From Eggerthia catenaformis OT 569 = DSM 20559 (lineage in GTDB: Bacteria; Bacillota_I; Bacilli_A; Erysipelotrichales; Coprobacillaceae), in contig NZ_KB446647.1 in assembly GCF_000340375.1 (NCBI RefSeq), positions 26,633-90,632 of the forward strand: a stretch of DNA of 64,000 bases. The letters are read 5' to 3'. Under the pieces are notes generated by a model. That model was not told the DNA's origin and did not search any database. It worked only from the letters and a program-made list of their open reading frames with translations. Numbering within the stretch: position 1 is the stretch's first letter; each line of letters opens with the position of its first letter. Below, one piece after another: positions 35,916 to 50,701 of the stretch. Made by a program: the position numbers and the translations under genes.

Positions 35916-35991
35916 CTCTCCTTAGCTCAGTTGGCAGAGCATCTGACTCTTAATCAGAGGGTCCACGGTTCGAGCCCGTGAGGGGAGACCA
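35916..35991 (+). tRNA. tRNA-Lys (anticodon CTT), CCA encoded
   Basis: Acceptor CTCTCCT pairs with AGGGGAG (one G-U), the discriminator is A and CCA is encoded. Anticodon arm TCTGA CTCTTAA TCAGA places CTT at 34-36, reading AAG. T arm CACGG TTCGAGC CCGTG. Length is 76. A terminator follows at 36003. Confidence 0.95.
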
Positions 35992-36002
35992 TAGAAAAAT
36001 CG

Positions 36003-36024
36003 GAGATCGTTTGATCTCTTTTTT
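36003..36024 (+). terminator. Intrinsic terminator of tRNA-Lys
   Basis: GAGATC GTTT GATCTC followed by six T. Confidence 0.75.
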
Positions 36025-36073
36025 ATCACATAATTTTCTGTTATATTCCTATTAATTAACCATAATGATAATT

Positions 36074-36079
36074 TATAGT
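36074..36079 (+). promoter_or_regulatory. Candidate -10 box of an intergenic small RNA
   Basis: TATAGT lies 7 bases ahead of a perfect hairpin at 36086. The -35 region is poor, so this is a guess supported mainly by the downstream hairpin and orphan terminator. Confidence 0.4.
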
Positions 36080-36085
36080 AATACC

Positions 36086-36183
36086 TGTAGTAAGAATTAC
36101 TACAAATTTCATAAACTTCCCCTTTTAATGATTTTCTCTTTTTATAAGAGAAAAACAGGTCTTCTTTTCAAGACCTGTTTTTT
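36086..36183 (+). ncRNA. Candidate small RNA with C-rich linker and own terminator
   Basis: The segment begins with hairpin TGTAGTAA GAA TTACTACA and continues through a single-stranded CTTCCCCTTTT, then hairpin TTCTCTT / AAGAGAA and terminator AAAAACAGGTCTT / AAGACCTGTTTTT. The terminator does not belong to tRNA-Lys, which has its own at 36003, and no protein gene lies between. C-rich single-stranded stretches are known in Firmicute sRNAs that bind G-rich ribosome binding sites. This is an inference from structure. Confidence 0.5.
36151..36183 (+). terminator. Orphan intrinsic terminator
   Basis: AAAAACAGGTCTT, loop CTTTTC, AAGACCTGTTTTT: a 13-bp stem with a U tract that follows no known gene. 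Confidence 0.85.
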
Positions 36184-36199
36184 GCTTTATAATAGCATT

Positions 36200-37267
36200 A
36201 TGAAAACAATAAAGACTATTAGAGAAGAATATCATTTATCTAAAGATCAACTGACACAGTTTCTTCTTGAGCAAAACTACATAAAAGAATCAGAGAATAT
36301 TGACCTCTTAGAATGTCCGGAGAGCTTGGAAAAGCTTATCAGCTCGCATTTATCGGCAATTAAGCATATTGCTTTAAGAAATAAATATACATCTATAGAT
36401 GAATATAAAGCTCCTTTGATGATACCTATGACTTATACGATATTAGGAATAGATCATTTTGTAGTACTGGATACTGAAACAACCGGACTTTATAGGAATG
36501 ATGAAGTTATTGAATTATCTGTTTTAGATGAGCTGGGACATGAACTTTATCATTCTCTGTTTCATCCCCAGAAAAAGATGGCTAGAGAGGCTATCAGAAT
36601 AACAGGCATGGATAATGCATATTTAAAGAATCAGCCTTATTTTAAAGATGAATGGGAAACTATTAAAAATGTTATTGGTACAAGAAGAATTCTTGGTCAT
36701 AATATTCAGTATGATTATAGAATAATGCTTGCAACAGCGCAAAGATATCATATGAATACTCAGGAAATAAAATATCTATTTAATGATATGATTGATTCAA
36801 TAGAACTTATTAAACGATATATTAAAACACCAAGCTATAAGCTTAAAGATCTGATTAGATTATTTGGAATTGAAGAATCTCAGCGGCATCGTGCATCATA
36901 TGACTGTCTTCAGACGCTACAGGTTTTAAGGAAAGTGGAAAGATATTTGATTGAAAGAACAGGATCAAAAGAAAGGATAAATATGGATACTATCAGACAG
37001 GCAGTACTATTAAGCTATAAGCTCGGTAAATCTATTGAGGATATTTCTATTTTCTTTGGCATCAGTACGAATGAAACCGCAGATTTAATTATTGAAGCTT
37101 ATCATAAGGAGCATGATTTTGATTTACAGATAGATTCAGAAGTAGAATCAAAGATTCTCTTTTTAAAAAACAACTGTTCAAAAGAAGAATTTAAGAATAA
37201 AGCATTAAAATATGTTAAGGAATATGAAATAAAATTAATAATAGCGAAAAATAAATGTTTTAAATAG
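36200..37267 (+). CDS. DnaQ-like 3'-5' exonuclease (DEDDh) with HTH-like tail
   Basis: A 355-residue protein. The exonuclease domain (about 85-255) has ExoI VVLDTETTG (Asp91, Glu93), ExoII HNIQYDYR and ExoIII HRASYDC. An N-terminal about 80-residue helical part and a C-terminal part with IEDISIFFGISTNETADLII suggest DNA-binding accessory regions. The frame stays open up to 36065, but that crosses a terminator hairpin, so ATG 36200 is the start. There is no SD: TATAAT ends 6 bases before the ATG, so the message is probably leaderless. It may act in repair or as a proofreading-like nuclease; the exact role is unknown. Confidence 0.82.
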   Translation: MKTIKTIREEYHLSKDQLTQFLLEQNYIKESENIDLLECPESLEKLISSHLSAIKHIALRNKYTSIDEYKAPLMIPMTYTILGIDHFVVLDTETTGLYRNDEVIELSVLDELGHELYHSLFHPQKKMAREAIRITGMDNAYLKNQPYFKDEWETIKNVIGTRRILGHNIQYDYRIMLATAQRYHMNTQEIKYLFNDMIDSIELIKRYIKTPSYKLKDLIRLFGIEESQRHRASYDCLQTLQVLRKVERYLIERTGSKERINMDTIRQAVLLSYKLGKSIEDISIFFGISTNETADLIIEAYHKEHDFDLQIDSEVESKILFLKNNCSKEEFKNKALKYVKEYEIKLIIAKNKCFK

Positions 37268-42140: not shown

Positions 42141-42164
42141 TTATTTCACCTCATATGTATTATA

Positions 42165-42238
42165 ACATAAAAGAAGTATGCGGGGGAGCACACTTCTTTT
42201 AAACTTGCTTATAGGGGGTGTAAGTTTCCTCACTTACA
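42165..42238 (-). ncRNA. Candidate C-rich small RNA (or attenuated Nudix leader)
   Basis: On the minus strand TTTACA and TATAAT (42271-42266 and 42249-42244, 16-base spacer) predict a start at about 42237. There a hairpin TGTAAGT / ACTTACA begins, then ACCCCCTATAAGCAAG, then a terminator stem AAAAGAAGTGTGC / GCATACTTCTTTT with loop TCCCCC. The two CCCCC runs are typical of Firmicute sRNAs that pair with G-rich ribosome binding sites. A 12-base repeat TATTATAACATA (42158-42169, 42243-42254) flanks it, giving a second TATAAT for the Nudix gene. It could instead be an attenuator for that gene. Confidence 0.55.
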
Positions 42239-42243
42239 AGAAT

Positions 42244-42271
42244 ATTATAACATACCTATTTAAAATGTAAA
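42244..42271 (-). promoter_or_regulatory. Promoter of the minus-strand small RNA
   Basis: TTTACA and TATAAT are spaced 16 bases apart (minus strand). It matches the sigma-A consensus in 11 of 12 positions. Confidence 0.65.
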
Positions 42272-46665: not shown

Positions 46666-47508
46666 ATGAGAGAAGTTGAAAGTACATTGATTATTGAAGA
46701 AGTGGCTAGAATGTGCATGGAAACAAATTATAGTTTACCCAATGATATTTTTAAATCCCTGATAGATGCTATTAAACTAGAAAACTTTAATAATGCAAAA
46801 GAGGTTTTAAATATATTAAAGAATAATGCTGATCTGGCAAAAAATAATGACTTACCTATTTGCCAGGATACCGGTATGACCTGTATTTATGTTGAAATAG
46901 GACAGGAGGTTCATGTTTCAGGTAATCTGAATGAAGCAATTAATGAAGGGGTTAGAAAAGGATATCAGGAAGGTTACTTAAGAAAAAGCGTTGTAGCTGA
47001 TCCCGTACTTCATCGAGTGAATACAGATGATAATACACCGGCAATTATTCATTATGAGATTGTTTCAGGAGATAAGCTAAAGATTACTGTTGCTCCTAAA
47101 GGGTTTGGAAGTGAGAATATGTGCCGTATTGCGATGATGAAGCCAAGTGATGGTATTGAAGGCATTAAATCTTTTATTCTTGATACTGTTGAGAAAGCAG
47201 GACCTAATCCCTGTCCGCCGATGGTAATTGGCGTAGGAATAGGAGGAACTTTTGATTCAGTAGGCTATCTGGCTAAAAAGGCAATGCTCAAAAGAACAGA
47301 TGAATATCATCCGGACAAAGAATACGCTCTTATTGAAAAAGAAATGCTAGAAAAAATCAATGCATTAGGAATAGGACCTGCAGGATTTGGCGGTCGTACA
47401 ACAGCATTAAGTCTGCATATTGAAACATATCCTACTCATATTGCCGGTATGCCTGTTGCGGTTGCTATTTGTTGTCATGCTGCCAGACATCAGGAGGTTA
47501 TCTTATGA
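46666..47508 (+). CDS. Class I fumarase, alpha subunit (TtdA/FumA N-terminal type)
   Basis: A 280-residue subunit of an iron-sulfur hydro-lyase that interconverts fumarate and malate. Iron-sulfur Cys residues lie in LPICQDTGM, PNPCPPMVIG and ICCHAARHQE. The conserved GIGGTFDSVGYLAKKA is also present. ATG 46666 with GTGAGGG is chosen over ATG 46627. Its stop overlaps the beta subunit start (ATGA). The alpha and beta subunits correspond to the N- and C-terminal halves of E. coli FumA. Tartrate dehydratase is a close alternative. Confidence 0.9.
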   Translation: MREVESTLIIEEVARMCMETNYSLPNDIFKSLIDAIKLENFNNAKEVLNILKNNADLAKNNDLPICQDTGMTCIYVEIGQEVHVSGNLNEAINEGVRKGYQEGYLRKSVVADPVLHRVNTDDNTPAIIHYEIVSGDKLKITVAPKGFGSENMCRIAMMKPSDGIEGIKSFILDTVEKAGPNPCPPMVIGVGIGGTFDSVGYLAKKAMLKRTDEYHPDKEYALIEKEMLEKINALGIGPAGFGGRTTALSLHIETYPTHIAGMPVAVAICCHAARHQEVIL

Positions 47509-49826: not shown

Positions 49827-50482
49827 GTTCAAGAAAAGTACAGCTAATTTATCGTTTCATTTTATTTTTGCTTCTTTTAATAGGTTTAGCAAGTAATCTT
49901 ATTACTTCATTATTTAATGGTTTTCAAACATATGCCTATTATACTTTCCAGTCAAATATTATTTGTTTTATTATTATTGTTTTTCAACTCTCAGATACGA
50001 TTTCTTCTTTAAGAAGGCATCAGTATTATGGAGATAGCGAGAAGTTCGTCAGAATACAGTTTTTAGCTTGTATATGGATTACAATTACCTGTCTGGTCTA
50101 TAATATATTATTAGGTAATCCGCTGACCCCGTTATATTGGACAAAAAATCTTCATAATCCTTTACTTCATTTGATTGTACCTATTTTATTTGTATTAGAT
50201 TTTCTTTTATTCTCAGCCAGAAGGGAAATATCAAAATGGCTGCCACTATCAGCTGTCGTATTTCCTTATCTTTATATTACTTTTATTATAATCAGAGTCA
50301 GGATTATAGATTTTATCTATAATCCAATACCGTCATATGTTGTAAAATATCCTTATTTTTTTCTGGATGTTAGTAAAATAGGATATATAGGTGTTATTAA
50401 ATGGACGGGAATCTTAACAGTTCTATTTTTAGTATTTTCTTATGCTCTTAAATTTATTTATGATCATACAAAGCAGTATTGA
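49823..50482 (+). CDS. Pr6Pr/FAR-17a-like integral membrane protein
   Basis: A 219-residue membrane protein with about six hydrophobic segments. FQTYAYYTFQSNIICFI and LHNPLLHLIVPILFVLDFLLF match Pr6Pr-family proteins that carry the T-x-Q-S-N motif and a conserved His (LLHL). The bacterial function is unknown; animal relatives of the AIG1/FAR-17a group are lipid hydrolases. It overlaps the flavodoxin gene and ends with a terminator. Confidence 0.75.
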   Translation: MSSRKVQLIYRFILFLLLLIGLASNLITSLFNGFQTYAYYTFQSNIICFIIIVFQLSDTISSLRRHQYYGDSEKFVRIQFLACIWITITCLVYNILLGNPLTPLYWTKNLHNPLLHLIVPILFVLDFLLFSARREISKWLPLSAVVFPYLYITFIIIRVRIIDFIYNPIPSYVVKYPYFFLDVSKIGYIGVIKWTGILTVLFLVFSYALKFIYDHTKQY

Positions 50483-50510
50483 GCAGATCTTTATAAAGGT
50501 CTGCTTTTTA
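50482..50510 (+). terminator. Intrinsic terminator
   Basis: AGCAGATCTTTATAAAGGTCTGCT palindrome followed by TTTT, after the Pr6Pr-type gene. Confidence 0.8.
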
Positions 50511-50542
50511 CTTATAAATAAAGGAAAAAAATAAAATAAAAC

Positions 50543-50571
50543 TTGCATTTAATAGTAGATTCATGTATCAT
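50543..50571 (+). promoter_or_regulatory. Promoter of the S10 ribosomal supercluster
   Basis: TTGCAT and TATCAT with a 17-base spacer. The predicted start is near 50578. Confidence 0.6.
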
Positions 50572-50577
50572 AGCTAT

Positions 50578-50701
50578 GTTGTGAAAACACATAGATGTGC
50601 GAGGTTGCTGAAACGCTGATAGCCGTTGTCATGAACGGAAGGGTGCTTCAGGGAATTCACACGGAGTGTTGTCTAAACGAATAGACAAAGGAGGAAAAAT
50701 C
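50578..50701 (+). promoter_or_regulatory. Structured S10 operon leader RNA
   Basis: About 120 bases hold hairpins CTATGT / ACATAG (50574-50594), CCGTT / AACGG and TTGTCTA / TAGACAA (50669-50688), the last ending at the SD AAAGGAGG. No terminator U tract is seen, so it would act on translation or RNA stability. A ribosomal protein autoregulatory site is plausible but not proven. Confidence 0.5.

Follow-up and report, generated by a model that had tools for sequence, protein, structure and literature searches.

In the 64,000-nt stretch of Eggerthia catenaformis DNA that was analysed (the window), a tRNA-Lys gene and an exonuclease gene on the same strand are separated by what looks like a real small-RNA gene that stands alone and belongs to a multicopy family of Kandleria- and Sharpea-related gut bacteria (Table 1). 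The ends of the predicted RNA were placed from the -10 box (5') and from the terminator (3'). An earlier note on this DNA had described a TATAGT box, a perfect 8-bp hairpin at 36086, a second hairpin and a strong terminator of 13 bp with no gene directly ahead. The box and both hairpins are present in the sequence and the fold, the tRNA closes with its own terminator upstream, and the -35 region is indeed weak; the terminator is strong as claimed, but we count 14 pairs. Positions 36086-36186 fold at -27.0 kcal/mol compared with a shuffled mean of -12.2 (z -5.60), and none of 200 shuffles was as good. A terminator scan of 34.3-43.5 kb returned 11 sites where 2.9 were expected, and the four G-C pairs of the element's terminator were the most found amongst them.

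Table 1. Positions of the features in the window, and family members accepted in each genome
Feature	Position	Strand	Basis or remark
tRNA-Lys(CTT), upstream neighbour outside the small RNA	35916..35991	+	
tRNA-Lys terminator, between the two transcripts	36002..36024	+	terminator scan; sequence
TCACATAAT, conserved upstream element, probable activator site	36026..36034	+	
-10 box TATAGT	36074..36079	+	sequence; comparable boxes ahead of hairpin in homologs
Predicted small RNA, about 98 nt	36086..36183	+	fold z -5.6; homologs
5' hairpin, perfect 8 bp, TGTAGTAA-GAA-TTACTACA	36086..36104	+	fold; covariation
Conserved unpaired core TTCATAAACTTCCCC, anti-AUG + anti-Shine-Dalgarno	36108..36122	+	
CTTCCCCTTTT	36116-36126	+	sequence
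Second hairpin	36133..36153	+	fold
Intrinsic terminator	36150..36183	+	terminator scan
TATAAT of the exonuclease gene	36188-36193	+	
Exonuclease gene (RNase_T), downstream, outside the small RNA	36200..37267	+	ATG at 36200
Other small-RNA candidate	42168-42240, promoter to 42271	-	TTTACA-16-TATAAT, good sigma-70-like promoter
Eggerthia catenaformis (own genome), 3 members	window copy; G000:C5:46371-46462, 47320-47410		
G016, 6 members	tandem triplet 3074529, 3074689, 3074849		
G018 (Sharpea porci), 4 members	C56		tandem triplet on C56
G026 (Sharpea azabuensis DSM 18934), 4 members	C9		tandem triplet on C9
G010, 5 members			
G008 (Kandleria vitulina DSM 20405), 3 members			
G024 (uncultured Erysipelotrichaceae RUG246), 3 members			
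G011, 3 members			
G013, 2 members			

A mechanically called open reading frame (36065-37267) runs across the element. Since the orthologous exonuclease frames (L003, L004 and L006) start at, or a few residues ahead of, the residue matching 36200, it is taken to be an open frame ahead of the exonuclease ATG and not the start of the gene. As a separate observation, the exonuclease may be leaderless, its TATAAT ending so close to the ATG (36165-36202), and the Kandleria ortholog (L004) likewise has a TATAAT about 7 bp ahead of its ATG. Scans of genome contigs and of viral contigs with the single exonuclease protein gave no match.

Direct DNA similarity yielded no convincing homolog of the element. 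At E<=0.001, 10 of the 98 genomes gave a match, and by eye the nine short matches besides the own locus resemble chance matches to AT-rich stretches or terminators. A covariance model built from the window copy alone (R1) and run over 43 genomes of the family gave weak matches. Six were inspected (G018, G016, L121, L122, L123 and L126), and those in G018 and G016, which are intergenic and share the hairpin, UUCAUAAA-UUyCCC and a terminator, were accepted; the other four were not, and neither was a match (L117; E 0.0013) at the 3' end region of the G043 eno gene, as the linker of this match lacks the core. A pattern search contributed a G026 copy and two G010 copies. A model from six copies (R3), like R1 built with the upstream sequence excluded, was then used to search 294 genomes of the order, of which 34 had matches at E<=0.1, and subsequently 20 genomes of the family with laxer filters. 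Among the matches listed, 33 members from nine genomes and seven genera were accepted: 23 at E<=0.01 in the search of the 20 genomes, and ten (E 0.010-0.95, with one member at 0.95) admitted on visual inspection of linker, terminator and intergenic location, the upstream sequence also being visible. Of 22 R3 candidates inspected, 16 were accepted and six rejected (G008:C14 16342, G008:C9, G018:C1, G026:C31, G026:C15 and G000:C4).

The family count leaves out G001:C20 (E 0.067), G062 (E 0.054) and most matches above E 0.1. In a second family (f2), 11 matches were inspected, and those of G189, G069, G052 and G146 resemble members by eye and stand outside the 33. The family is patchy, with 11 of the 20 family genomes having no accepted member among the matches listed, and since copies are partly paralogs or come from congeners, the member counts are not independent. 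No Rfam family reached its gathering score over the element itself, nor did any except tRNA in 17 scanned loci holding other members. A second stretch of the window, 50416-50512, was rejected as a member, mostly resembling by eye the 3' end of a coding frame. After the coding end, positions 50560-50680 appear by eye to be GC-richer, with apparent inverted repeats followed by AAAGGAGG; this stretch has no Rfam match at gathering score.

The surroundings of the copies differ. The synteny of the window copy was not found in any relative, and Kandleria has eno and tRNA-Lys in the same order but without the element. Members in the own genome and in G010 (L241 2372-2463 and 3321-3411; L217 3375-3488) lie, in opposite orientations, in a gap adjoining a thymidine kinase gene (Pfam TK; own copy tested), on the other flank of which is what we take to be a HAD-like phosphatase gene adjoining a release-factor-like gene. 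The Sharpea triplet (L211 1984-2535; L209 1576-2173) has an HxlR-type regulator gene on one side and azlC-azlD on the other (Pfam, L211 only).

In the alignment of six members, the hairpin and the terminator covary. In that alignment 93.2% of cells are paired compared with 67.7% in shuffles and 36-54% in slid controls, figures to be read with the fact that it was fitted to the model, which favours pairing. Both sides have changed in 14 of the 18 pairs, including seven of the eight in the 5' hairpin. For four of five covariation measures none of 500 shuffles was as high, and for the fifth (further pair types) 29 of 500 were. The 5' hairpin is absent from the fold in at least six members (three of G011, the two own copies on C5 and G010_C9), the second hairpin of the window copy has no counterpart in five other folded copies, and some tandem copies have a different middle hairpin. 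These covarying helices, together with homologs of the same anatomy in other genera and conserved upstream elements, argue for the small-RNA call of the earlier note, and the homologs that it proposed to seek in Erysipelotrichia intergenic regions do occur there, as predicted small RNAs, in other genera.

The position of the element just 3' of a tRNA gene, and its multicopy and partly tandem occurrence in relatives, would also suit a 3' extension processed from the tRNA-Lys transcript, a dispersed repeat or a relic without function. We consider this very unlikely, since the tRNA has a separate terminator, neither L124 nor L125 contains a tRNA, the two tRNA-Lys genes near eno in Kandleria end in a terminator without the element, and the helices covary rather than decay. 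The terminator also lies directly 5' of the exonuclease gene, and ACCTGT at 36083-36088, which is complementary, probably by chance, to ACAGGT at 36155-36160 in the terminator's 5' arm, could pair with it as in a cis-acting leader (attenuator) of that gene. That the element works in this way is very improbable: a TATAAT belonging to the exonuclease lies 6 bp ahead of the ATG, the element is absent from the 350 nt upstream of five exonuclease orthologs, and homologous elements adjoin unrelated genes, which are sometimes convergent. The palindrome was also considered as a transcription-factor operator and this reading was rejected; the genome contains the 8-3-8 sequence only once, with the next site having two mismatches, and the reversed control gave more matches (82 vs 38).

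The earlier note had likened the element to a candidate at 42.2 kb. The order of parts does agree, that candidate having a 7-bp hairpin before and a 14-bp terminator after its ACCCCCTATAAG linker (z -5.0 for 42160-42256), but on comparison the two are unrelated in sequence. Two properties of the element go beyond that note, namely its membership of a multicopy family and the complementarity of its linker to a ribosome binding site and AUG.

Read as its reverse complement, the conserved family core UUCAUAAAyUUyCCC is a gene start comprising a Shine-Dalgarno (SD) sequence and AUG. Gene starts with an SD in the window have the consensus AAAAAAGGGGGAAATAATATGAAA, and the reverse complement of the linker is AAAAGGGGAAGTTTATGAAA. 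With a start-score matrix from 51 gene starts of the window and the lower quartile of real starts as the cut-off, the antisense strand scored above the cut-off in 18 of 33 members and the sense strand in none, compared with 0.7 expected from shuffles; 15 members fell below the cut-off, and seven of the 33 have no match to the CAT...CC linker pattern. Predicted pairing of the window copy's linker with the 51 gene starts had a median of -11.7 kcal/mol, compared with -6.4 for 500 random 45-mers. C-rich linkers in general match the SD partly, and the excess over chance is the AUG part together with its spacing. An alternative is that the RNA is a general SD-binding C-rich small RNA like RoxS/RsaE, in which CCCC alone pairs and the anti-AUG part is incidental. 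An unpaired, C-rich CCCCUU motif is common to both in the alignment, and Rfam RsaE/RoxS (RF01820) gives a weak match of 22.3 bits, where the gathering score is 79. However, CATAA adjoins the C-rich part in most members at a distance suiting an AUG, and in 18 of 33 members a complete gene start is recognised on the antisense strand by its score, and we therefore regard such an RNA as an unlikely explanation. The present family also differs from RsaE/RoxS in layout and in having several diverged copies per genome.

The pattern TTCATAAAYTTYCCC had 19 matches in 12 of 43 genomes, with none for the reversed control; ten were antisense of the start of an ORF of at least 60 aa, five were accepted small RNAs and four were ambiguous, so that the contrast with the control shows how closely the motif resembles a gene start and does not in itself demonstrate the family. 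Two target searches of the own genome, both by SD complement, gave 8 matches vs 5 for the control and 16 vs 6, the small RNA itself being included in both. In two Sharpea genomes an L-lactate permease gene, identified by Pfam PF02652 (E 7e-128 with the G026 protein), has a start complementary to the single-copy small RNA over 15 unbroken nt in G018 and 18 in G026, with pairing energies of -26.1 and -27.9 kcal/mol, respectively. Since the Sharpea species are congeners and chance gives such matches too, this gene is a candidate target only.

Upstream of the members, TTCAYA-N9-T....T was found in 20 of 33 (shuffled mean 0.7, maximum 4), in a slice that took in 15 nt of the element. When the -10 was defined more strictly and the slice confined to the upstream sequence, the motif was present in 16 of 33 (shuffled mean 0.20, maximum 2), and in 8 of the 23 members at E<=0.01 (shuffled mean 0.11, maximum 1). 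Identity to the half-site peaked at 3.08 of 6 at an offset of 11 bp upstream, with 1.38-2.38 for the other offsets, and the family repeat reads TTMAYA-N5-TTCAYA-N9-TATATT. The window copy is without a clear TTCAYA repeat. A second motif, TCACAYWWT (TCACATAAT in the window copy), lies at a near-constant 52-54 nt ahead of the element in the window copy and in its closest relatives, all six G016 copies and G024_C297, and was found within 100 nt in 11 of 33 members (shuffled mean 0.39, maximum 3, or 0.57, maximum 4). Neither upstream element is present in 8 of the 33. From these conserved sites, the family promoters are probably under the control of a response regulator or similar activator.

Taken together, it is probable that the element encodes a small RNA of a multicopy family with an anti-start linker, which would pair with mRNA starts to keep ribosomes off. 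The predicted RNA would start just after TATAGT and present a 5' hairpin, an unpaired linker and an intrinsic terminator. Its linker core, UUCAUAAACUUCCCC, is antisense to an entire translation-initiation region, from the SD through the spacer to the AUG. With such a complement of a typical start signal exposed in its middle, the RNA would probably block the translation of other genes. It may do so in trans at the start regions of several mRNAs. An activator or response regulator that reads the TTCAYA-type direct repeats, or TCACATAAT in the window copy, would turn the promoters on.

The best reading by analogy is that the RNAs would act like the csRNAs of streptococci and LhrC of Listeria. 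The csRNAs are described as CiaR-dependent, with an unpaired region between two stem-loops that is complementary to SD + AUG (PMC3091779; PMC8186281), and with two to six genes per genome driven by CiaR promoters (PMC3091779). The CiaR site is given as a direct repeat, TTTAAG-N5-TTTAAG, with an 11-bp period at a distance of ten from the -10 (PMC3091779; PMC8186281). The present family likewise has several genes per genome and an unpaired anti-SD + anti-AUG region between two stem-loops, also in the window copy, and its 11-bp direct repeat ahead of the -10 is close to the CiaR box geometry. The repeat sequence itself is different and the host order is Erysipelotrichales, not Streptococcus. The exact CiaR box was found in none of the 33 members; one had it with at most one mismatch per half (0.43 in shuffles) and 13 with two mismatches (13.5 in shuffles). 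The window copy scored 19.8 bits with Rfam csRNA (RF02379; gathering 57), and none of six members matched it at E<=0.5. Since there is no CiaR box and the Rfam score is far under the threshold, the family is not csRNA. LhrC, as described in PMC4132741, has five copies, depends on the two-component system LisRK and carries, between two stem-loops, a stretch rich in C and U for which pairing across the SD is predicted. It differs in that its CU-rich motifs are redundant and three in number, with two located in loops (PMC4132741), where the window copy has a single C-rich motif, in the linker, and not one each in loop A, the linker and the loop of the terminator; an anti-AUG core is not mentioned in the available part of PMC4132741.

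Among the matches listed from the small-RNA literature on Erysipelotrichia, Erysipelotrichaceae, Kandleria/Sharpea and Erysipelothrix, including PMC11109978, the available portions of the sources do not report the family. We tentatively suggest, at somewhat less than even odds, that a csRNA-like system has separately arisen in Erysipelotrichales, in which a regulator of the 11-bp repeat drives sibling antisense-start small RNAs, so that one signal may dampen many mRNAs. If true, the family would regulate gut bacteria at the post-transcriptional level and represent what seems an independent instance of the csRNA design, with the same anti-SD + anti-AUG linker and near-identical promoter geometry built from different sequences.
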